Shown: positions 912 to 28,546 of the stretch, piece by piece | Numbering within the stretch: position 1 is the first letter of the stretch | How the letters are laid out: each line of letters begins with the position of its first letter | Assembly: GCA_013696105.1 (NCBI GenBank) | Contig: JACCZE010000227.1 | Location: 1-33,136, forward strand | Direction: 5' to 3' | DNA length: 33,136 nucleotides | Source: Planctomycetota bacterium | GTDB taxonomy: Bacteria > Planctomycetota > UBA11346 | Position numbers and translations under genes: made by a program | The notes under the pieces: model-generated | Told to the model about the DNA's origin: nothing | Databases searched by the model: none | What the model saw: the letters and a program-made list of their open reading frames with translations, nothing else

Positions 912-1730
912 ATGTCCGCGATCGCTACGTCGGATGCCATCCTCGCCGGAAGCACGTCGGAACCCGCCGCCGCGGCGTACCGCATGTTCTACGCCCTCGC
1001 GGGATTGGCGCTCCTTGCCACGGTCTGCGGCGTCGGCCGTCATCTCGCCGAATCGCTCGCCGCGCTCATGCCCGGCCACGGGACGACCGCCGTGCGGCTG
1101 GCGGCGGTGCCGGCCTCGGCGTGGCTGTTCGCTGTCGCCCATCTGGTCGCCGCGGTCGCGTCGCTGGCGGTCGGGTACCTCGTCATCTCGCTGGCGTATC
1201 CCCGCCGCTTCCTCGAGCGCGAGGCGCGCGCGAATCCCGCCGCCGCGATCCAGGCCAGCGCGCACCTGCTCGGCGCCGCGGTCATCGCCATCGTCAGCTG
1301 GGGCGGATGTGATGCGCCGTCGCTGGTGGTGTCGCTGGTCTTCTGCGTCCTGGGCTGGGTCGCGGTGATCGTCATCGGCGCCGCCCATCGCCTGGTGACC
1401 CGCTACCGCGACCACGAGGAGATCGCCGCCGGGAATACCGCGGCCGCGCTCGCCGCCGCCGGTCTGCACCTGGCCGTCGCGCTGGTCGTCGGCCACGCCA
1501 TCCAAGGGCAGTTCGCCGGCTGGGGCCAGGCGTTCAGCGGCTTCGCCGCGGCGCTGGTGGTGGTCTTCGGCTTGTATCCGCTGCGCCAGGTGGTGCTCGC
1601 GCGCCTGATCCTGCGCATGAGTCCGTCAGCGATGGATGCGGCCGTCGCCGGGCAGCGCGACCATTACCTCGGAGCTGCCGAAGCCGCGTGCTATGTCCTC
1701 ACCGCGCTGTGCCTGACGGCGGGATGGTGA
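912..1730 (+). CDS. Multi-pass membrane protein, DUF350 family (YjfL-like, duplicated)
   Basis: 272 aa from the ATG at 912, preceded by GGGAG about five bases upstream; an in-frame GTG at 846 would add 22 unconserved-looking residues. The protein is almost entirely hydrophobic helices separated by short Arg/Glu/His loops. The central loop with H-E-E-I-A-A-G-N-T-A-A-A-L-A-A-A-G is typical of DUF350 proteins such as E. coli YjfL, which are about 130 aa; the double length suggests two DUF350 units. It sits 4 bases before the ATP-grasp ligase gene, the same pairing as yjfL and yjfC in E. coli. Its function is unknown; an inner-membrane partner for the ligase or its product is inference. Confidence 0.75.
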   Translation: MSAIATSDAILAGSTSEPAAAAYRMFYALAGLALLATVCGVGRHLAESLAALMPGHGTTAVRLAAVPASAWLFAVAHLVAAVASLAVGYLVISLAYPRRFLEREARANPAAAIQASAHLLGAAVIAIVSWGGCDAPSLVVSLVFCVLGWVAVIVIGAAHRLVTRYRDHEEIAAGNTAAALAAAGLHLAVALVVGHAIQGQFAGWGQAFSGFAAALVVVFGLYPLRQVVLARLILRMSPSAMDAAVAGQRDHYLGAAEAACYVLTALCLTAGW

Positions 1731-1734
1731 CGCC

Positions 1735-3000
1735 GTGAATGCTCCAGCGCCCGGGCTGGCTTGCGACGATCGCGTCGCGCAGCGGTACGCCGCGCTCTAT
1801 GCCAATGGGATCATCGATGATCCGTGGCTCGACGGCTCCGACCGACTGTGCTTCGAGCCCGAGATCCTCGATCGCCCGCATGTGGGCGCCTTGGCCGAGG
1901 CCGCCGCGACGGTGGCGATGATGCTCGACGAGGCCATGCGCGCGATCACGGGCGACGCGGATCTGCAGCGTCTGGTCGGCATCGACGACAGCCTCGCCGC
2001 CATCGCCTCCTTGGATGCGCCACGCTGGCTCGCTCTCGCCCGCGCCGACGTGTTCGACGTCGAAGGAGGCGGACCCCCGCAGGTATGCGAGATCAACTGC
2101 GACACTCCAACCGGCCTGGCCGAATGCACCGAACTCGCTCGCATCGCAGCGATGGCGCATCCGCGCGTGGCCGATCCGTCGGCCCAGCTGCGCGAACGCT
2201 GGGTTGCGATGGTGCGTTCCTGCTTCGATCCGGAGCAGGCGGCGCCGGTGGTGGGCATCGTCGACGCGACGGAGATCACCGAGGACCTGTGCCATGTCCG
2301 CCTGATGACGCGCTGGTTGCAGGAGGCTGGCATCGCCGTGGTGCGGGGTTCTCCGTTCAACCTCCACGCCTGCGACCGTGGCCGGGTCGGCTTCTTCGGC
2401 ACGCCGTGCGATGTGCTGGTGCGCCACTACAAGACCGACTGGTGGGCGCGTCGCGCGAGCGTGTGGACGGACGAGCCGCCACCGCCGCACGATGCCATGC
2501 TCCACCGCGAGTTGGAATTGATCTCCGCGGCCATGGCGGCGGGCACGCTCGCGGTGGTGAATCCGTGGGGTTCCGCGATCGCCCAGAACAAACGCATGCT
2601 GGCGCTGCCGTGGGAACGACCGCAACTCTTTCGTGCAGACACCGCCAATGCGGTGCGCCGGTTCCTGCCCCAAACAAGATTCCTCGAATCGCTGGCGATT
2701 CCCCAACTGATCGCCGAGCGAGCAGACTGGGTGCTCAAGAGCGATTACGGCTGCGAGGGCGACGAGGTGCTGGTCGGCAGCGTGACCGAGCCGCAGGCCT
2801 GGGCCGAGGCGCTGCGCCTGGCCGCCCCTGGCCGCTGGATCGTGCAGCGCGCGTTCACGCCGAGGCGCGACGCCTTCGGTACGGTCGCCAATCGCGGGGT
2901 TTTCCTGATCGGAGGCCTGCCCAGCGGCATCTACACCCGCCGCTCGAGCGGCCCGACGGATACGCGCGCCTGTTCGTGCCCGACGCTGGTGCGACGGTGA
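1735..3000 (+). CDS. Glutathionylspermidine-synthase-family ATP-grasp ligase (YjfC-like)
   Basis: 421 aa from a GTG start 4 bases after the upstream stop. Family enzymes join a carboxylate to an amine using ATP. Visible marks are E-I-N-C-D-T-P-T-G (119-127), matching the E-x-N-x-D-T-P-T/S segment of the family, N-P-W-G-S-A-I-A-Q-N-K (277-287), and the ATP-binding K-S-D-Y-G-C-E-G-D-E (335-344). The C-terminal G-I-Y-T-R ... G-P-T-D (about 398-409) is also family-like. The N-terminal amidase domain of bifunctional E. coli Gss is missing, as in YjfC, so true glutathionylspermidine synthesis is doubtful; the substrate may be a peptide, polyamine or lipid amine. The last codons overlap the next gene by GTGA. 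The final 20 residues also read well in another frame, so a sequencing indel near 2940 cannot be excluded. Confidence 0.85.
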   Translation: MNAPAPGLACDDRVAQRYAALYANGIIDDPWLDGSDRLCFEPEILDRPHVGALAEAAATVAMMLDEAMRAITGDADLQRLVGIDDSLAAIASLDAPRWLALARADVFDVEGGGPPQVCEINCDTPTGLAECTELARIAAMAHPRVADPSAQLRERWVAMVRSCFDPEQAAPVVGIVDATEITEDLCHVRLMTRWLQEAGIAVVRGSPFNLHACDRGRVGFFGTPCDVLVRHYKTDWWARRASVWTDEPPPPHDAMLHRELELISAAMAAGTLAVVNPWGSAIAQNKRMLALPWERPQLFRADTANAVRRFLPQTRFLESLAIPQLIAERADWVLKSDYGCEGDEVLVGSVTEPQAWAEALRLAAPGRWIVQRAFTPRRDAFGTVANRGVFLIGGLPSGIYTRRSSGPTDTRACSCPTLVRR

Positions 3001-4352
3001 GCGACCAGACCGCGACGGTGCTGGTGGCCGCATTCTTCGACGGTCCGGGATTGTTGGCGGTGCGCTTCACGCGTGCGGGCGATCTGTCTCCGGTCGCTCG
3101 CTTCGCGACCATGCGCCCACCCGACGCGAGTCCGATCGGCTGCGTCGGCGTCGCCGGCATCGTCGGCATCGGCTTGGGGATCGCGCTGATCGCGGTTCCG
3201 GTCGTGCGCAGCTTCCAGAAGTCCAGCCAGGAGAGCCAGGCAGGAAGGATCGCGAGCGAGAGCGCCCAATCCCTGGATCGTCCGGTGATCGACGGACGCA
3301 CGGCCACGGATTGCCGACAGGGGACCGCGTGGGCCGGGACGCTGGGCACGCTCGCCGACGACCTCGCGCCCAAGCGCGAGGATCTGCATCGCTACGCGGT
3401 GCGCACGCTGCTCGACGTGCCGCGTGAGATCGCGGCATCCAGCGATCCCACCGGCGGCTGGCTCGCACCGCGCTGCGCACCGAGCGATCAGACCGCGTAC
3501 GAGCATGCGACGCGTCTCTCGGCGATGCTCACCGAGATCGGCTGCGGGCCGGAGGTGGCGGTGATCCTGGATCTCGCGGGGCCGAACGCGGTCGCCGCCG
3601 CTGCCGCCATGTCGGCGAACTTCGACCCGGTCTTCACCATGGACAACCTGCCGCATCCCGCGGCGGCGGTGCCGTCCGCGCAGACGCTCGCCGCCGCGGT
3701 GTATTGGCGGCCCGAGTTCGTCGCCGCGCAGGCCAAGCGTACGCGGAGCGCCCCGGCGCTGTTCGTGCTGGATGGGAACCGCCTCGCCCCGTACGCAAAC
3801 GAGGCCGGTCGCTTCGACAACCGCTCGGTCGCGAGATTGCCCGATGCCGCCGGATTCCAGGCGCTGGGGATCACGCGGGTGCTGTACGTGCGCGCACGCA
3901 GCGGCGAGGTGGCGGAGTCCGACGATCTGCACGAGCTGTTCCTCGCGCTCGGCGCCGCCGGCGTCGAGGTGCGGCACCTGGCGCTGGAATCGGCGGTCAG
4001 CGGTCCGGCCACGCTGGCTGCCGAGGCGGCGCAGAACCCGCAGGATAAGGGGCGTCCGGGATCGTCGTTTCCCGCCCTGTGGTTCTGGTACCTGTACGGG
4101 TGGAACCGCCCCGCGGGGATCGGCTCGTCAGGTATCCGGGACGGCGACGCGAACTACCGCGCGACGCCGCGGACGACGATGTTCTCCGGAAGGCCCGGAC
4201 CGTCCGGACTCGACGGCGGGCAGCGCGCACACGGGACCGTGATCCAGGGTCTGGCAGCACCGCGGGTGCTGCCGGCCCCATCACCTCCGTCGAAGACATC
4301 CGGCGGCTCGTGGTTCCGCTCCACCGGTTCGCGCGGATATCACAGCTCATGA
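2997..4352 (+). CDS. Uncharacterised membrane-anchored protein of the DUF350/ATP-grasp operon
   Basis: 451 aa from a GTG that overlaps the ligase stop (GTGA); an alternative ATG at 3111 would begin just before the membrane segment. A Gly/Val/Ile-rich transmembrane helix (about residues 46-66) is followed by a long region on one side of the membrane. The body contains recognisable but unnamed blocks such as D-P-V-F-T-M-D-N-L-P-H-P, F-V-L-D-G-N-R-L, D-D-L-H-E-L-F-L-A-L and W-F-W-Y-L-Y-G-W-N, then Y-R-A-T-P-R-T-T-M-F-S-G. I know no function. Third-codon GC is high right from 2997, supporting the early start. The last about 45 residues are Gly/Pro/Ser-rich and may be disordered. Tight coupling to the ligase suggests a shared pathway. 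Confidence 0.7.
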   Translation: MSDQTATVLVAAFFDGPGLLAVRFTRAGDLSPVARFATMRPPDASPIGCVGVAGIVGIGLGIALIAVPVVRSFQKSSQESQAGRIASESAQSLDRPVIDGRTATDCRQGTAWAGTLGTLADDLAPKREDLHRYAVRTLLDVPREIAASSDPTGGWLAPRCAPSDQTAYEHATRLSAMLTEIGCGPEVAVILDLAGPNAVAAAAAMSANFDPVFTMDNLPHPAAAVPSAQTLAAAVYWRPEFVAAQAKRTRSAPALFVLDGNRLAPYANEAGRFDNRSVARLPDAAGFQALGITRVLYVRARSGEVAESDDLHELFLALGAAGVEVRHLALESAVSGPATLAAEAAQNPQDKGRPGSSFPALWFWYLYGWNRPAGIGSSGIRDGDANYRATPRTTMFSGRPGPSGLDGGQRAHGTVIQGLAAPRVLPAPSPPSKTSGGSWFRSTGSRGYHSS

Positions 4353-4359
4353 CATCGGA

Positions 4360-4917
4360 ATGCCCATGACCAGCGCGTTCTTCGGTCTGCAGATGGCGTT
4401 GGAGCTCCCGCGCGGCGATCAGCTGCGCGACCGACTGTCGGAGGTGGTGCGCGAGCTGCGCGGATCGACCTCGGTCCCGACCCAGCGGACGAGCTGGACC
4501 CGCGCCTCCGCTCTGCTCGTAGAGGCGATCCCGACCGCGCGCCTGGCCACCTGGGATCTCATCCGCGAGGCGGCCGAGGCCGAGTACGAGGACTGGGCGA
4601 GCGGCCTGGAGGCGATGGCGCTGTGGCCGCTCGCCGACTTCGGAGCCGACGGCCGCTACGTGCTGGTCAGCGTCATCATGTTGGTGACCGCCGACTCGAC
4701 CGCCGATCAGACCCTGGGCGACGTGTGCGACATTCCCGAGCGCGATTGGCTGCGTCGTTCGACCTATCAGAAGCTGGCGAGCGCGCCTCCGATGCTCAAC
4801 TTCACCCACGTGCTCTGCAGCGGCATGTATCTCGCGCCGCGTCCCGACCTGGTCGGGTTCTCGCACGCGGCGCTGACCGGCGAGGGTTTCGAATACCTCG
4901 ATCCGGTCCAGGATTAG
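4360..4917 (+). CDS. Uncharacterised cytoplasmic protein, last gene of the DUF350/ATP-grasp operon
   Basis: 185 aa. The start at ATG 4360 lies 7 bases after the preceding stop; ATG 4366 is possible. There is no signal peptide or membrane helix. A basic N-terminal half precedes a C-terminal core with Y-V-L-V-S-V-I-M-L-V-T-A, then M-L-N-F-T-H-V-L and Y-L-A-P-R-P-D. The hydrophobic V-S-V-I-M-L-V-T strand followed by a short acidic segment and a late segment ending in F-S-H resembles DUF1517-type C-termini, but only weakly, and I would not name it so. The gene ends shortly before a strong bidirectional terminator, marking the operon end. Confidence 0.75.
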   Translation: MPMTSAFFGLQMALELPRGDQLRDRLSEVVRELRGSTSVPTQRTSWTRASALLVEAIPTARLATWDLIREAAEAEYEDWASGLEAMALWPLADFGADGRYVLVSVIMLVTADSTADQTLGDVCDIPERDWLRRSTYQKLASAPPMLNFTHVLCSGMYLAPRPDLVGFSHAALTGEGFEYLDPVQD

Positions 4918-4982: not shown

Positions 4983-5026
4983 AAAAAAGATCGACACCGG
5001 CCACCGCCGGGGTCGATCTTTTTTTT
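4983..5026. terminator. Bidirectional terminator between the operon and tRNA-Cys
   Basis: Stem GATCGAC (4989-4995) with GTCGATC (5012-5018), an inner CCGG/CCGG stem after one A-G mismatch, and loop CCACCG. It is flanked by six A on the left and eight T on the right, so it works for the plus-strand operon and, read backwards, for the minus-strand tRNA gene. Confidence 0.9.
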
Positions 5027-5099
5027 GGAGGCGCCACCACGATTCGAACGTGGGTGAGGGGAGTTGCAATCCCCCGCGTGACCGCTCCGCCATAGCGCC
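5026..5099 (-). tRNA. tRNA-Cys (anticodon GCA), CCA encoded
   Basis: 74 nt on the minus strand. Acceptor GGCGCTA pairs with TGGCGCC including one G-U pair. It has a 3-bp D stem GCG/CGC, anticodon stem GGGGA/TCCCC around TTGCAAC, a 4-base variable loop, and T stem CCACG/CGTGG around TTCGAAT. The discriminator is U73, the known identity base of tRNA-Cys, followed by encoded CCA. The 3' end runs straight into the A/T-tract terminator. A CATAAT at 5106-5111 (minus strand) is a possible -10 box. Confidence 0.95.
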
Positions 5100-22894: not shown

Positions 22895-25800
22895 CTACTG
22901 CGCGATCTCCACGAAGCAGATCTTCGTGTTGTACGATCCGCCATCGTTGCTCAGCGTCAGGCGGCCGTCGCCGACGGTGACGGTGACGGTACCTTCGCGG
23001 AAGGGCACGGTCGACGTGGCGCGACCGGTGACCGCGAGCGCACCTTCGACGCGCAGCGCGAAATTTCCGTCAAAGTAGCTGGGGTCGCCGCACACGACGT
23101 GGACGCGGTAGGTGCCGTTGGGAACGGCGATCTCCCAGCGCGCGCCGGGGTTCGCCCCGCCCTGCATCAGCACCAGCGTGTCGCGCAGCTGATCGGCGGT
23201 GGCATTGCGTTCGCGGCTCTCGCAGGGCGCGTTCCAGCCGTAGGACAGCGAGCCGTGCAGAGCGTAGCTGCCACCCGCGTCGATGGCGTAGCCGCTCACG
23301 AGCGCAGCCGCGGCCGGCTGGAAGTTGATCTTCGCCGAGAACGTGCTCGGCGGCGGCGGCGGTGGGGGCGGCGGATTCGTCGCCGAGAAGTCCAGGTAGT
23401 CGAGGTTGAATCCGCCCACGTCGATCGCCAGTCGCAGGACATGCGTGCCGGCGGCGAGACGTACGCGCCCGAGGGCGACGATCTGCCAATTCTGGTAGCC
23501 GCCGGTGTTGGGAACGGCGACCGCATTGGTCACGTAGGCCGTGCCGCTCTCGAGGTGCAGCACGCCTCCGCCGGTGGGCGCGGCGACACGCGCGGACATC
23601 ACGTAATCTCCCGTCGCCGGTACGGTGACGGTGTATTTCAGCCATTCGCCGGTCGCGGTCGCCGCCAGGTAGACGCTGCCCGCGGCGGCCGAGGTCGAGA
23701 GGTCGACGCCCTCGCTCGGACGGTACTGGCCGCCGTGGTTTACCGCGTCTTGATCGTGGTAGGCCCAGCCCTCGCCGCCGGCATCGTAGTCGCGCGCATA
23801 CAGGCGACCGCCGAGGGTGCGCGCCCTGCCGCCGAAGGGCTGGTTGATCGCCGACGCTGCAAGCAGGACGCGTTCGCTGAGGAAGTCGCCGTTGGACGAT
23901 CCGCTGATGAGCACGGTGCCGTTGGGTGCCTGAGCCGATCCGTAACCGAGGCTCACGAACTGGTCGGGCTGCACCTTCACGCCATTCGTGCCGAAACCGG
24001 CATCGCGCGCGCCGTTCGCCAGCACCCGCACCAGCGCCACCCGTTGCATGCGTCCGACGCCGGTGAGGTCGGTGACGAGCCCGGTCGCGAGGATGCGGCC
24101 ATCGGGCAGGAGGATCAGCGAGTACGTCTCGAAATCGCCGGAGCCAGAGGGGATGTCGACCTGTCCGGATCCACCGAAGGCGCTGTCGAGCGATCCGCTC
24201 GGAGTGAAGCGTGCGAGCAGGCTGTGGCGGTACGGCTGCTGACGGTCGTCCTGGAGGCTCCAGCCGACGACCACCGGCTTGCCGTCGCCCTGGATCGCGA
24301 TGTCCGTGGGCATGGCTCCGAACGGGAAGGCGGTGGACGCGAGCCCATTGACGCCGAACGACCCATCGACGGTGCCGTTGCGGTTGAGCCGCGCGACCCG
24401 TATCTGCAGCGAATCGTTCGCGCTGGTCGGGCCGCCCTGGACGGCGGCGAGGATCTTCCCATCGCTGGCGAAGGCGATGGCTTTGACGTGGGCGTATTGG
24501 CCGGTCAGTCCGGGATAGCTGATCCCACCCGATCCGAACCCCGTATCGAGAGCGCCATCGGCGAGGTACCGCAGCACGATCGCCTGGCCGACGCTCGTGG
24601 CCTGGTCGCGGTATTGGCCGCCACCGACGACGATCCGTCCGTCGGCCTGGAGTTCCATCGAGGCGATCGACAGGTACGAATCGAGGCGTGTGATCGCGAT
24701 GCCGTTGGCGCCGAACGCCGGATCCAGCGCGCCGTCCGGCATAAGGCGGACGAGCAGCACGTGCCCGAGACCGTTCGGCACATCGGTCTGCTGGCCGCCG
24801 ACGACGATCTTGCCGTCGGGTCTCAGCGCCAGCCCGCAGACGTACATGGCGTCTCCAGGCGTGGGAATGGCGACCCAGCCGCCGCTGCCGAAGGTCCGAT
24901 CGAGCGCCCCGTCTGCGGTCTGCCGGGTGACGATGGTGATGTTGCGGCGCTGGGCATCGCGCGACCACAGGGCGGACAGGATGCGACCATCGGGAGCCGC
25001 GATCACGTAGCGGCCGGAATCCTCCGCGTTCCCCATCGGCACTACTGCCCGTCCACCAGCGAACGTCCCGTCGAGACCGCCGTTCGCGACCGCGGCGAAC
25101 ACCGTCGCCACGAAGTCGAGGGGGACCGAACTACGGGATTCTCCGGCCAGCAGCAGGCGTCCGTCGCTGCGCGCAGCGAGCCCGTGCGCGAGCGAAGCCC
25201 CGGCGAACACCGTCGATCCGTCGAGCGCGCCGTCGGAACGGAAGCGGCAGAGCGCGGCCTGGCTGTCCTGGTAGGCCTCGCCGACCCATCCGGCGACCAC
25301 GACGTGGCCATCGGGCTGGATGGCCACCGCCAAGCCGCTGTCGGTGCGCGCTCCGAACACCGTCGATGCGCGCGAGGTGGCGATGCCGCCGCCGGCGAAC
25401 GAGGCATCTCGGTCGCCGCTGGAGAGCAGGCGCGCGACGACCATGTCGCTCTGGGGGGCTGACGTGAATTGGAGCGAGCTGCCGCCGAGGACGATCTTGC
25501 CGTCGGGCTGCAACGCCACGCCATCCGCTCGGTCGCTGCCGCCCGCCACATCGACGTAGACGATGCCGGACGTCCCGAACGTGGCGTCGACGCGACCGTC
25601 GCCGAGCAGCCGCACGGCGGTCATGTCTCCGCCGCTGGTGCGGTTGGTGAAGCCGGCGAGGACGATGCGTCCATCGCTCTGGACGGCGACGCCTTGCGCG
25701 GAGGCGGCGCGGTCGCTCGGCGCGTACGGGCTGATGTCGAGCGGCACCTCGGCGTACCCGCCGACGCCGAAACCACCGTCGAGCACGCCCGCGCTGGTGA

Positions 25801-26356
25801 CGCGCGCCACGAGGAAGCTCGATCCGCCACCGACGACCACCACCGCGCCGTCGCTCTGCTGTGCGAGCGCTTGTGGAGTAAAGCGGGTGACGGTGACGAT
25901 GCCGCCGGACCCGAACGTGGCGTCGAACGTGCCGTCGGCCCGCAGGCGTGCGACGAATCCTCCGTAGCCTCCGTTTCCGGCGTATCCGCAGATCAGCACG
26001 CGACCGTCCGCCAGCACCACCAGGCCGGTCGCGGCGTCGTCGCCTGCGCTCAGCGGCAGCAGCAGCCGACCCGTGCCATGGAAGGTCGGATCGAGCGATC
26101 CGTCGCTGCGAAAACGCGCGACCGCGACGTCGTCGGTCGCTCCCGTCCACGCTCGGCCTGCGACCACCACGCGACCATCGGACATGGCCGCGACCGCGTT
26201 CAATTGATCCGGGCCCTGATCGATGAACGACCGCACGAGCCGCCCGCCCGTCGCGAAGGTCGGATCGAGGTCGCCGTCGGCGGCGTGTGATCGCGGAGAG
26301 GGAATCGCCATGAGCAGGACGCAGGACCACGACCACCACCACGGGCTTCGTACCAT
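22895..26356 (-). CDS. Large secreted delta-60 repeat protein with CBM6-like and malectin-like C-terminal domains
   Basis: 1153 aa from ATG 26356, preceded by GAGGGGG; an ATG 18 codons upstream lacks a ribosome site. A signal peptide (about residues 1-26, ending S-H-A-A) is followed by about 14 delta-60 repeats of about 55-65 residues, each ending in an L-D-x-x-F-G-x-x-G-like motif (first L-D-P-T-F-A-T-G-G), a beta-propeller-like array. Then comes a CBM6-type region (Y-D-A-G-G-E-G-W ... G-E-W-L-K-Y-T-V-T-V-P) ending N-L-D-Y-L-D-F. A Pro linker leads to a malectin-like domain (I-N-F-Q-P, Y-R-V-H-V-V-C-G-D-P). This is a surface carbohydrate-binding protein; no catalytic domain is seen. The gene is convergent with lhr, 58 bases apart. 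Confidence 0.93.
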   Translation of the reverse strand: MVRSPWWWSWSCVLLMAIPSPRSHAADGDLDPTFATGGRLVRSFIDQGPDQLNAVAAMSDGRVVVAGRAWTGATDDVAVARFRSDGSLDPTFHGTGRLLLPLSAGDDAATGLVVLADGRVLICGYAGNGGYGGFVARLRADGTFDATFGSGGIVTVTRFTPQALAQQSDGAVVVVGGGSSFLVARVTSAGVLDGGFGVGGYAEVPLDISPYAPSDRAASAQGVAVQSDGRIVLAGFTNRTSGGDMTAVRLLGDGRVDATFGTSGIVYVDVAGGSDRADGVALQPDGKIVLGGSSLQFTSAPQSDMVVARLLSSGDRDASFAGGGIATSRASTVFGARTDSGLAVAIQPDGHVVVAGWVGEAYQDSQAALCRFRSDGALDGSTVFAGASLAHGLAARSDGRLLLAGESRSSVPLDFVATVFAAVANGGLDGTFAGGRAVVPMGNAEDSGRYVIAAPDGRILSALWSRDAQRRNITIVTRQTADGALDRTFGSGGWVAIPTPGDAMYVCGLALRPDGKIVVGGQQTDVPNGLGHVLLVRLMPDGALDPAFGANGIAITRLDSYLSIASMELQADGRIVVGGGQYRDQATSVGQAIVLRYLADGALDTGFGSGGISYPGLTGQYAHVKAIAFASDGKILAAVQGGPTSANDSLQIRVARLNRNGTVDGSFGVNGLASTAFPFGAMPTDIAIQGDGKPVVVGWSLQDDRQQPYRHSLLARFTPSGSLDSAFGGSGQVDIPSGSGDFETYSLILLPDGRILATGLVTDLTGVGRMQRVALVRVLANGARDAGFGTNGVKVQPDQFVSLGYGSAQAPNGTVLISGSSNGDFLSERVLLAASAINQPFGGRARTLGGRLYARDYDAGGEGWAYHDQDAVNHGGQYRPSEGVDLSTSAAAGSVYLAATATGEWLKYTVTVPATGDYVMSARVAAPTGGGVLHLESGTAYVTNAVAVPNTGGYQNWQIVALGRVRLAAGTHVLRLAIDVGGFNLDYLDFSATNPPPPPPPPPSTFSAKINFQPAAAALVSGYAIDAGGSYALHGSLSYGWNAPCESRERNATADQLRDTLVLMQGGANPGARWEIAVPNGTYRVHVVCGDPSYFDGNFALRVEGALAVTGRATSTVPFREGTVTVTVGDGRLTLSNDGGSYNTKICFVEIAQ

Positions 26357-26451
26357 ACATCCCCCTCGCCCGGTCCGGTTCCACGGGCGCTGCATGCTAC
26401 CAGCACGCACCTTGCACCCGTTGGACGACTGGCCTCAGGCTTCCACGCCGA

Positions 26452-27303
26452 TCAGCCGCGCGTGCGTCTGCCGCCCAGATCGGGTTGGCCGCGCCGATAG
26501 GCGGCCGGAGGGACGCCCATGCGGCGCGTGAAGACGCGGGTGAAGTAGAATCGGTCGGGGAAGCCGCAGCGCTCGGCGATGTCCTCGATGGATTCGTCGC
26601 TCAGCAGCAGGCGCTGGGCGGCGAGCGCGACGCGGCGCTCGAGCAGGTATTGCCCGGGCGACTGGCCGAGTTCGGCGCGGAAGCGCCGTGCGAAGTGCGC
26701 TTCGGCGAATCCGCAGTCCCTGGCCAGCGCGGAGACGCGCAGGGGCAGCGCGACATCGGCCTCGATGCGCTGCAGCGCCGGCGCGAGCCGCGAGTCGGGA
26801 TGCAGGGCCGAGGAGATGCGGGCGGACCGCTCGGGATCGAGCCGAGACATCAGCATCGCCAGCGCGGCGTAGATCGCCGCCTTCGCGGCGAACTGCGCTT
26901 GCGGCCGACGCGCGGCATCGGCGCCAGCGATGGCGGCGCGCATCGCCTCGGCGGTGGCGCGCAGCGGGGCATCGAATGGCAAGGACACCGGTCGTGCGAA
27001 GACCTCGCGCACCAGGGTTCCGGGGAGCCCGACGATGTCGAAATGCGCGTAGAGGTGCTGCACCACGTTCGCAGGCGGCATCAGGTCGAAGCGCACCCAT
27101 GCCGGCACGAGGTGGACCATGCGCGGCGGCAGGTCGAAGACCGAGCCGTCCGCATGCAGCCGGATCGATGCGCCAGCGCGGGAATTGACATAGTAGCGCC
27201 AATAGGTGCTGCAGACGTCACGGTCCTTCCACCACGCGTGGATCGGGACTTCGTGGCTTATGAAGGTACGGACATGGAACCAGTCCTGGTCGATGATGCC
27301 CAT
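26452..27303 (-). CDS. AraC-family transcriptional regulator
   Basis: 283 aa from ATG 27303. An N-terminal cupin-like sensing region (about 1-170, with R-L-H-A-D-G-S-V-F-D-L-P-P-R) is followed by a standard double HTH (about 190-283): R-V-S-A-L-A-R-D-C-G-F-A-E-A-H-F-A-R-R-F, then I-E-D-I-A-E-R-C-G-F-P-D-R-F-Y-F-T-R-V-F. The ligand is probably a sugar or related small molecule. It is divergent from the 107-aa gene and the dioxygenase at 27716, which it probably controls through the shared 27304-27399 region. Confidence 0.93.
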   Translation of the reverse strand: MGIIDQDWFHVRTFISHEVPIHAWWKDRDVCSTYWRYYVNSRAGASIRLHADGSVFDLPPRMVHLVPAWVRFDLMPPANVVQHLYAHFDIVGLPGTLVREVFARPVSLPFDAPLRATAEAMRAAIAGADAARRPQAQFAAKAAIYAALAMLMSRLDPERSARISSALHPDSRLAPALQRIEADVALPLRVSALARDCGFAEAHFARRFRAELGQSPGQYLLERRVALAAQRLLLSDESIEDIAERCGFPDRFYFTRVFTRRMGVPPAAYRRGQPDLGGRRTRG

Positions 27304-27399
27304 GCCCGCCCAACATGTCAGGATCAGATACAAGAGCCATCGGCTTCGGCCATGGTCCGGCAGCGCCCCGCCGCATACCATCGCGACCAGGAGCCCGTC

Positions 27400-27723
27400 A
27401 TGATCACCACTGCCGAGCGAACGCGTCCGACCCGGAAGAAGCAGCACCTGCGGCAGCAGCTGCTGTTCCTGTACCTGAGTCATCCCAGCCCGGCTGCGGA
27501 CACCATCGCCTGGAGCCGCTTCGACGGCGCGAGCACCGAGGAGCATGGCAGCGGCGACGGCGAGCAGCCTCCATATCCCTCTGTCCTGGCGGCCATGCGT
27601 GATGGCTGGCGCGTCATCCAGGTCGCGCAGCAGGCACCGCCTGCGCTGGGACTCGAGCATCGCACCGCCTATCTCGCCTATGAATTCGTCCTCGAACGCT
27701 TGGTGGAGACCACCCATGCATGA
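27400..27723 (+). CDS. Uncharacterised 107-aa protein between araC and the dioxygenase
   Basis: 107 aa from ATG 27400, with AGGAG seven bases upstream. The N-terminus is basic (R-P-T-R-K-K-Q) and helical, followed by a central low-complexity stretch (S-T-E-E-H-G-S-G-D-G-E) and a helical end (Y-L-A-Y-E-F-V-L-E-R-L-V-E-T-T). No signal peptide, membrane segment or family is recognised. The last codons overlap the dioxygenase start by 8 bases, so both are translated together. It is unlike the flanking regulator and enzyme. Confidence 0.75.
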   Translation: MITTAERTRPTRKKQHLRQQLLFLYLSHPSPAADTIAWSRFDGASTEEHGSGDGEQPPYPSVLAAMRDGWRVIQVAQQAPPALGLEHRTAYLAYEFVLERLVETTHA

Positions 27724-28546
27724 CCGCATCGATTCCCGTCAGGCCGCGCGCTTCGTCGCCGATGGGCTGCTGCGCTTCGATGCGCTGGTGCCCGACCAGC
27801 TGAATCGGGACGTGCTCGCCGAGCTGCGCTCCGAGCGGCTGACCGCCTGCCGTTACAACGACGCCCGCGTCGGCTTCGACGAGTACTTCGCGGATTCGCC
27901 GGCCTACTTGGCGGTCCTGCGTCTGCCGCAGGTGCAGGCGGCGATCGCTGGGCTGGTCGGGCCCGAGCCGGAGATCGACCACTGCGCGGTGCACACCGTT
28001 CCCGCCGGATCGCGGCACGCCCAGGTGTGGCACGCCGATGCGACCATCGATCCACGCACCGAGGCCTTCGACATCCAGATCTTCTACTTCCCGCACGACA
28101 CGCCGCGGGAAGCGGGAGGAACGCTGTTCCTGCCGTCGAGCCATTTCCGGCGCGTGCACGAATTCTCGATCGGTCGCTACCACAACATCGTCGGCCAGAC
28201 GCCCACCGTCTGTCCCGCCGGAACGATCATCATCGGCCACCACGGCCTCTGGCATTGCGGCCAGCCGAATCTGACCGCGAGCACCCGCTACATGGTGAAG
28301 CTGCGACTGAACCCCACCGTCCGCCAGTGCGGCCTGTTCGACCGCTCCGATATCGACCACCCCGATGTCATGTCCGCGCTGCAGAGCCACCACCGCTGGC
28401 ACGGAGTCGAGGCCCGCCTCGAGATCCTACAACGCCTGCGCCTCTGGCGATCCCTGACCGGTACCAATGCCGATGTCGACCTCTGGCTGACCCGCCTCGA
28501 GAACGAGCCGACCCGCAGCCTGAGCATGGCGCACGCAGCGGGATGA
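27716..28546 (+). CDS. Phytanoyl-CoA dioxygenase family (PhyH) Fe(II)/2-oxoglutarate oxygenase
   Basis: 276 aa from ATG 27716 (GGTGGAG upstream). PhyH enzymes hydroxylate small molecules using Fe(II), O2 and 2-oxoglutarate. The metal triad is visible: H106-x-D108 in V-W-H-A-D, and distal H180 in L-W-H-C-G-Q-P-N, with the 2-oxoglutarate-binding R191 in T-R-Y. The helix-rich C-terminus (about 205-276) is extra. The substrate is unknown. It shares an operon with the 107-aa protein. Confidence 0.93.
   Translation: MHDRIDSRQAARFVADGLLRFDALVPDQLNRDVLAELRSERLTACRYNDARVGFDEYFADSPAYLAVLRLPQVQAAIAGLVGPEPEIDHCAVHTVPAGSRHAQVWHADATIDPRTEAFDIQIFYFPHDTPREAGGTLFLPSSHFRRVHEFSIGRYHNIVGQTPTVCPAGTIIIGHHGLWHCGQPNLTASTRYMVKLRLNPTVRQCGLFDRSDIDHPDVMSALQSHHRWHGVEARLEILQRLRLWRSLTGTNADVDLWLTRLENEPTRSLSMAHAAG

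Follow-up and report, generated by a model that had tools for sequence, protein, structure and literature searches.

What does a YgiC/YjfC-type ATP-grasp ligase act on when it is encoded together with a DUF350 membrane protein and two further proteins, here called P3 and P4? We met this question in a 33,136-nucleotide stretch of a Planctomycetota bacterium (the window), one contig of a 4.33 Mb, 79%-complete genome, in which four packed open reading frames on the forward strand (912-4917) encode these proteins. The features of this cassette are as follows.

912-1730, forward strand: P0001, a duplicated DUF350 membrane protein of 272 aa with many hydrophobic segments (Pfam PF03994, 3.6e-17, two stretches)
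1735-3000, forward strand: P0002, a YjfC/YgiC-type ATP-grasp ligase of 421 aa with a GTG start (Pfam PF03738, 2.4e-16)
2997-4352, forward strand: P3 (P0003), 451 aa with a GTG start, made of an anchor, a globular alpha/beta core and a disordered C-terminal tail
3132-3206, forward strand: transmembrane anchor of P3, about residues 46-70 (Kyte-Doolittle 19-residue peak of 2.57 at residue 52)
3231-4034, forward strand: globular core of P3, about residues 79-346 (alignment and AF2 model)
4282-4349, forward strand: Ser/Gly/Arg tail of P3, the proposed acceptor of the ligase (motif conservation against within-tail shuffles)
4302-4319, forward strand: tail motif GGSWFR, 16 residues ahead of the P3 C terminus (motif search)
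4360-4917, forward strand: P4 (P0004), a soluble alpha/beta protein of 185 aa (AF2 pLDDT 94.8, pTM 0.90)
4987-5026, forward strand: terminator-like, bidirectional stem-loop (4998-5015) and T-run, from the sequence

The initial annotation had described a four-gene operon ending in a terminator, and the reading frame coordinates and the sequence bear this out in every detail: a gap of 4 bases (1731-1734), a GTGA overlap (2997-3000) and a gap of 7 bases (4353-4359) lie between successive genes. The 3′ stem-loop has the form of a terminator on both strands and thus also serves the convergent tRNA-Cys gene (5026-5099). On the other flank lies a 102-aa reading frame (423-731) with no Pfam match, separated from the operon by a strong terminator-like hairpin at its 3′ side (754-781). 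Farther along the window, on the reverse strand, are a gene for a 1171-aa protein that combines nine DUF5122 beta-propeller stretches with a CBM6/CBM35-type domain (22895-26410) and, upstream of it, a gene for an AraC-type regulator (26452-27729).

Pfam confirmed both the duplication of DUF350 in the first gene product and the proposal that the ligase lacks an amidase domain: GSP_synth (PF03738, residues 50-407) was the only domain above cut-off in the 421 residues of P0002. P0003 and P0004 were equally devoid of Pfam and NCBIfam matches, as had been supposed; no member of the enlarged P3 and P4 alignments gave a convincing match, and the third protein carries the expected hydrophobic anchor. 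Structure prediction, which had been recommended for both, produced confident models of the P3 core (blocks mostly with pLDDT >90, against <50 in the tail) and of P4. In Foldseek searches of the PDB, neither P3 (E <= 0.05) nor P4 (E <= 0.1) had a fold match. The P3 core is invariant at D192, G195, H220, R262, N275, R276, E307, D309 and D310 across a 24-member alignment, a pattern that looks enzymatic. The only suggestive family match among P3 and P4 members was a weak one to DUF4178 (PF13785, E 0.03), in an extra N-terminal region of a single P3 (L039:2000-3628); in that protein a zinc ribbon and the DUF4178-like domain precede the anchor, and a 94-aa DUF350 protein is encoded upstream. A relationship of P4 to DUF1517 was rejected, with PF07466 unmatched in 20 P4 members and the family absent from 59 Planctomycetota genomes.

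Gss, the characterized relative of the ligase, joins the glycine carboxylate of glutathione to spermidine; its substrate is free glutathione and it is annotated as a fused amidase/synthetase. In a 12-member ligase alignment that included E. coli YgiC, YjfC and Gss, eleven columns were invariant. R103, D105, E119, N121, K286, K335 and R402 of P0002 correspond to R316, D318, E330, N332, K498, K533 and R598 of Gss, which we take to be its Mg-ATP/catalytic residues, and all seven are identical in P0002, YgiC, YjfC and Gss. Judged from this alignment, the active site of P0002 is intact. P0002 thus shares with Gss the synthetase fold and the active-site residues, whereas it has no amidase domain and there is no reason to expect glutathione as its substrate. 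YgiC and YjfC are of the same Pfam family as P0002, with the same seven residues and a synthetase only; identity to them is 16-19%. A single-sequence search returned no solved-structure match for P0002. The odd C-terminal residues of the gene 2 product raised the possibility of a frameshift near the end of the gene, which was rejected because orthologues stop at the same position and the 4-base overlap is seen again.

Both YjfC and YgiC bear the RefSeq name peptide--spermidine ligase. PMC12568646 and PMC12270671 cite Pederick et al. 2023 (PMID 36745518) for peptide-spermidine ligase activity, and the titles cited there describe the E. coli activity as acting on peptides. Family membership would predict that P0002, too, ligates spermidine to a peptide. 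The host genome carries an ornithine/arginine-decarboxylase-family gene flanked by two spermidine synthase genes (L160:5258-8315), which makes polyamines plausible as donors; this cluster is possibly their source.

The association of P3 and P4 with the ligase extends well beyond the window. Two other genomes of the family, which belong to another genus, have all four genes in the same order, with identities of about 40-45% for P3, 41-57% for P4 and 57-62% for the ligase; at such divergence (40-62%), recurrence of the order in the same family is more than chance. Four more Planctomycetota genomes (L021, L022, L023 and L069) share the order, the ligase/P3 overlap in four-gene loci is usually 4 bases, and DUF350 orthologues immediately precede the ligase in L019-L023 and L069. 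When 84,980 species genomes were scanned with the P3 alignment, we retrieved 22 loci, from Planctomycetota, Myxococcota and Ignavibacteria/Kapabacteria. In 17 of these the ligase is within the retrieved locus, and the other five genomes encode it elsewhere. P3 without a nearby ligase is seen in the Myxococcota loci L026, L030 and L031 and in L033, each in a genome with a ligase elsewhere. P4 is present in 7/392 Planctomycetota genomes and follows P3 directly in all seven. The neighbourhood search proposed in the initial annotation therefore did not find homologues of the last two genes mostly away from the ligase.

The ligase-P3-P4 set also occurs, rearranged, in Myxococcota and Ignavibacteria. 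Myxococcota loci often have the ligase-DUF350 pair and P3-P4 in divergent orientation, with a gene for an extra protein of about 270 aa in between. Proteins of about 270-320 aa encoded upstream of P3 in this phylum (L031:2576-3394, L026:4825-5625 and L036:4730-5683) had no Pfam match; their conserved HxDG...DHF and DYHGVxxDPxxRYSxRVDG motifs are reminiscent of 2-oxoglutarate/Fe(II) oxygenases. Thirteen further Planctomycetota loci hold a shorter trio, in which a DUF350-like protein precedes the ligase and a P3-like protein of about 200-330 aa is encoded at most 200 bp after it; Pfam recognized DUF350 in three of the upstream proteins, at or just under cut-off. Seen from the other side, a ligase profile run over the 392 Planctomycetota genomes gave 24 strong loci (E <= 6e-67), 21 of which adjoin P3. 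Weak P3 matches in G110, G378 and G165 (E 1e-7 to 3e-4) were left out of the P3 loci, a weak match to a methyl-accepting-type protein in G040 (L018) proved spurious, and no relatives were found in viral_contigs.

The tail of P3 is of low complexity, yet it retains a motif: 18 of 24 P3 members had [SG]G[ST][WF]xR among their last 30 residues, against a mean of 0.3 and a maximum of 3 in within-tail shuffles. The motif sits 11-16 residues from the C terminus (about 13), and 22 of the 23 members with an intact end terminate in G or S. Among the 13 short P3-like proteins, every one has GGFG (shuffles: mean 0.18, maximum 3), in most cases at a distance of 14-22 residues from the end. Overall, a Gly-aromatic motif was found in the last 35 residues of 30/35 P3-type proteins versus 0/256 other genes of the same loci, which were predicted in this analysis by codon usage; these motif counts are inflated by the relatedness of the homologues, which are not independent, and the same P3 proteins had partly served to define the motif. 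Tails are degenerate or variant in L019, L035, L037 and L039. Some Myxococcota genomes carry a second P3 of the shorter type beside a second ligase, with GGFGGSRGGGG-like tails (G393:C372 and G430:C309; L114 and L115).

The three strong ligase loci that have no P3 (G281, G014 and G020) were inspected after the motif had been defined and were not used to find it. Each adjoins a gene for a small Ser-rich protein with an SRGGFGSS-type ending (VTSRGGFGSSSHGSVSS, VTRGGFGSSGHRFSSHS or VSRGGFGSSSHSFGAGHSSGG); a lipobox-like sequence (LPGC or LVAC) occurs in two of these proteins and a hydrophobic segment in one. The feature shared with the P3 loci is therefore the tail and not the core. Such minimal proteins, made of a membrane segment or lipobox, a Ser-rich linker and an SRGGFGSS tail, lie beside YgiC-like ligases in Planctomycetota (L148, L149 and L150). 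Six distant ligases (E ~1e-30) had no tail-type neighbour that we could find. In an Ignavibacteriae contig (L038), the parts of P3 come apart: a single frame without a tail encodes the P3 core together with the C-terminal part of the ligase (3-1205; the rest of the ligase lies past the contig end). A small protein follows with a 4-base overlap (1202-1666), carries a hydrophobic segment and ends in RGSWGRSGGFSS (RQDCNNGNTGRGSWGRSGGFSS); its N-terminal part has no assigned family, and P4 is next. This split argues that the tail is an element apart from the core, and it places the P3 core with the ligase. These ligases have in common a membrane-anchored neighbour whose C-terminal tail is conserved and whose other parts are replaceable.

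The same arrangement is seen in E. coli, where the ligase genes lie by DUF350 (yjfL) and by a tail protein (yjfM, ygiB), as P0002 lies by DUF350 and P3. The adjacency of DUF350 and ligase is common to the yjfIJKLMC operon and to the window cassette, beside which there is no yjfI, yjfJ (PspA) or yjfK gene; P0002 differs in having P3 and not a DUF1190 protein as its partner, with P4 next. YjfM and YgiB (DUF1190) share with P3 an anchor or lipobox, a Ser/Gly tail and a ligase-adjacent gene; their RGGFG-like motif lies at a position similar to that of the Gly-aromatic motif of P3, and the endings of the small proteins from G281, G014 and G020 resemble their tails. All six DUF1190 proteins that we compared (YjfM, YgiB and four alphaproteobacterial ones) contain R[GQ]G[FY]G; five have it 14-16 residues from the end, whereas in YgiB the distance is 28, and the four alphaproteobacterial genes are annotated beside a 'glutathionylspermidine synthase family' gene. 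P3, however, has an unrelated alpha/beta core; PF06693 (DUF1190) was unmatched by P0003, by the other 23 P3 members and across the host genome. A profile of full-type P3 tails did not score DUF1190 tails above shuffled tails (five of six not significant), so the likeness holds at the level of the motif only and we do not claim common ancestry of the tails. The initial view that the last two genes differ from YjfI, J, K and M thus stands by family, but gene 3 is the positional and anatomical counterpart of YjfM and YgiB (anchor, Ser/Gly tail and motif about 13-18 residues from the end).

Taken together, these results lead us to favor, with moderate confidence, the view that the operon is a dedicated protein-modification cassette in which the ligase amidates the P3 tail with a polyamine. 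Given an anchored tail shared by otherwise different partners, and the Gss chemistry of glycine carboxylate plus spermidine, the simplest reading would make the tail carboxylate the acceptor; the near-fixed distance of the motif from the C terminus fits the use of a terminal carboxylate. The ligase would use ATP to convert the C-terminal carboxylate of the tail to an acyl-phosphate, and a polyamine, most likely spermidine, would then form an amide bond with it, in analogy to the reaction of Gss at the glutathione glycine, leaving a positively charged tail tethered to the membrane. DUF350 may be the membrane partner, the P3 core would, through its invariant charged residues, probably assist or reverse the reaction, and P4 may be an obligate accessory. 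Topology imposes a constraint: if the ligase is cytoplasmic, it must encounter the tail ahead of export, unless the tail faces the cytoplasm. Many Myxococcota P3 members, but not that of the window, have a second hydrophobic stretch ahead of the tail, which would return it to the cytoplasm. The P3 loci without a nearby ligase, the variant tails and the motif-level likeness to DUF1190 count against the tail as acceptor. Of the earlier idea of an amide-bond-forming pathway with new components, the DUF350/YjfC-type amide-bond cassette is retained, but the tail evidence points more to protein modification than to a metabolite route.

Such a route, with a small peptide- or amino-acid-polyamine metabolite as the ligase product, the P3 core and P4 as further enzymes and the tail as only a membrane-surface or protein-contact element, is nevertheless the best of the alternatives, and we judge it unlikely. 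The enzyme-like invariant residues of the P3 core (all those listed above except G195) would suit it, as would the use of free glutathione by the homologue Gss and the description, in the titles mentioned above, of the E. coli activity as acting on peptides. Against it, three ligase loci retain an anchor-plus-tail partner without the P3 core, and a motif held so close to a fixed distance from the C terminus suits terminal carboxylate use.

It is less likely still that the tail is an unmodified recognition or sorting motif, which recruits the ligase or PspA-like membrane-stress machinery while the ligase has its target elsewhere. Conservation of a motif by itself fits binding as well as modification, and the wider family has a link to membrane stress: PMC11237479 (Ravi et al. 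2024), in its accessible parts, describes operons of DUF350, a Gss-related ATP-grasp ligase, a DUF1190 lipoprotein and DUF2491, often with PspA, and proposes for them a role in polyamine-linked membrane dynamics. A Rhizobium operon likewise ties DUF350/ligase/DUF1190 to PspA and polyamine genes. The window cassette resembles the operons described in those parts in its DUF350, its ligase and its anchored partner, but it has different partners and no adjacent PspA or CesT/Tir-like gene; P3 and P4 are not named there, and the paper also has a 'Ctha_1186' lipoprotein. Two observations speak against pure recognition: nothing else that could be a substrate is found next to every one of the ligases, and the motif lies close to a terminus whose last residue is G or S. 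Finally, that the P3 core is a hydrolase removing the polyamine in place of the Gss amidase domain, making the cassette a reversible switch, is very unlikely: the amidase/synthetase fusion annotated for Gss, the invariant acidic, His and Arg residues of the core and its fusion to the ligase in L038 are in its favor, but the core matched no hydrolase or other PDB fold at E <= 0.05, and the three anchor-plus-tail loci lack it, so that polyamine removal would not be universal.

Amidation of the P3 tail may be one instance of something broader. We tentatively propose, at somewhat less than even chances, that C-terminal polyamine amidation of anchored proteins proceeds through a portable tail, with its Gly-aromatic motif some 13-18 residues from the end, common to the otherwise unrelated P3, DUF1190 and minimal lipoproteins. 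Each of these would lie beside its own ligase, and the system would span at least Planctomycetota, Myxococcota, Ignavibacteria/Kapabacteria and Proteobacteria. In a literature search that did not take in the primary activity study, we found no natural protein substrates reported for YgiC/YjfC-type ligases. The conserved tail offers a concrete acceptor candidate for each of these ligases, which in E. coli would be YgiB and YjfM. If the proposal is correct, it would establish a new class of C-terminal protein modification, linked to membrane and polyamine status, and would provide a functional frame for two uncharacterized families, the P3 core and P4.
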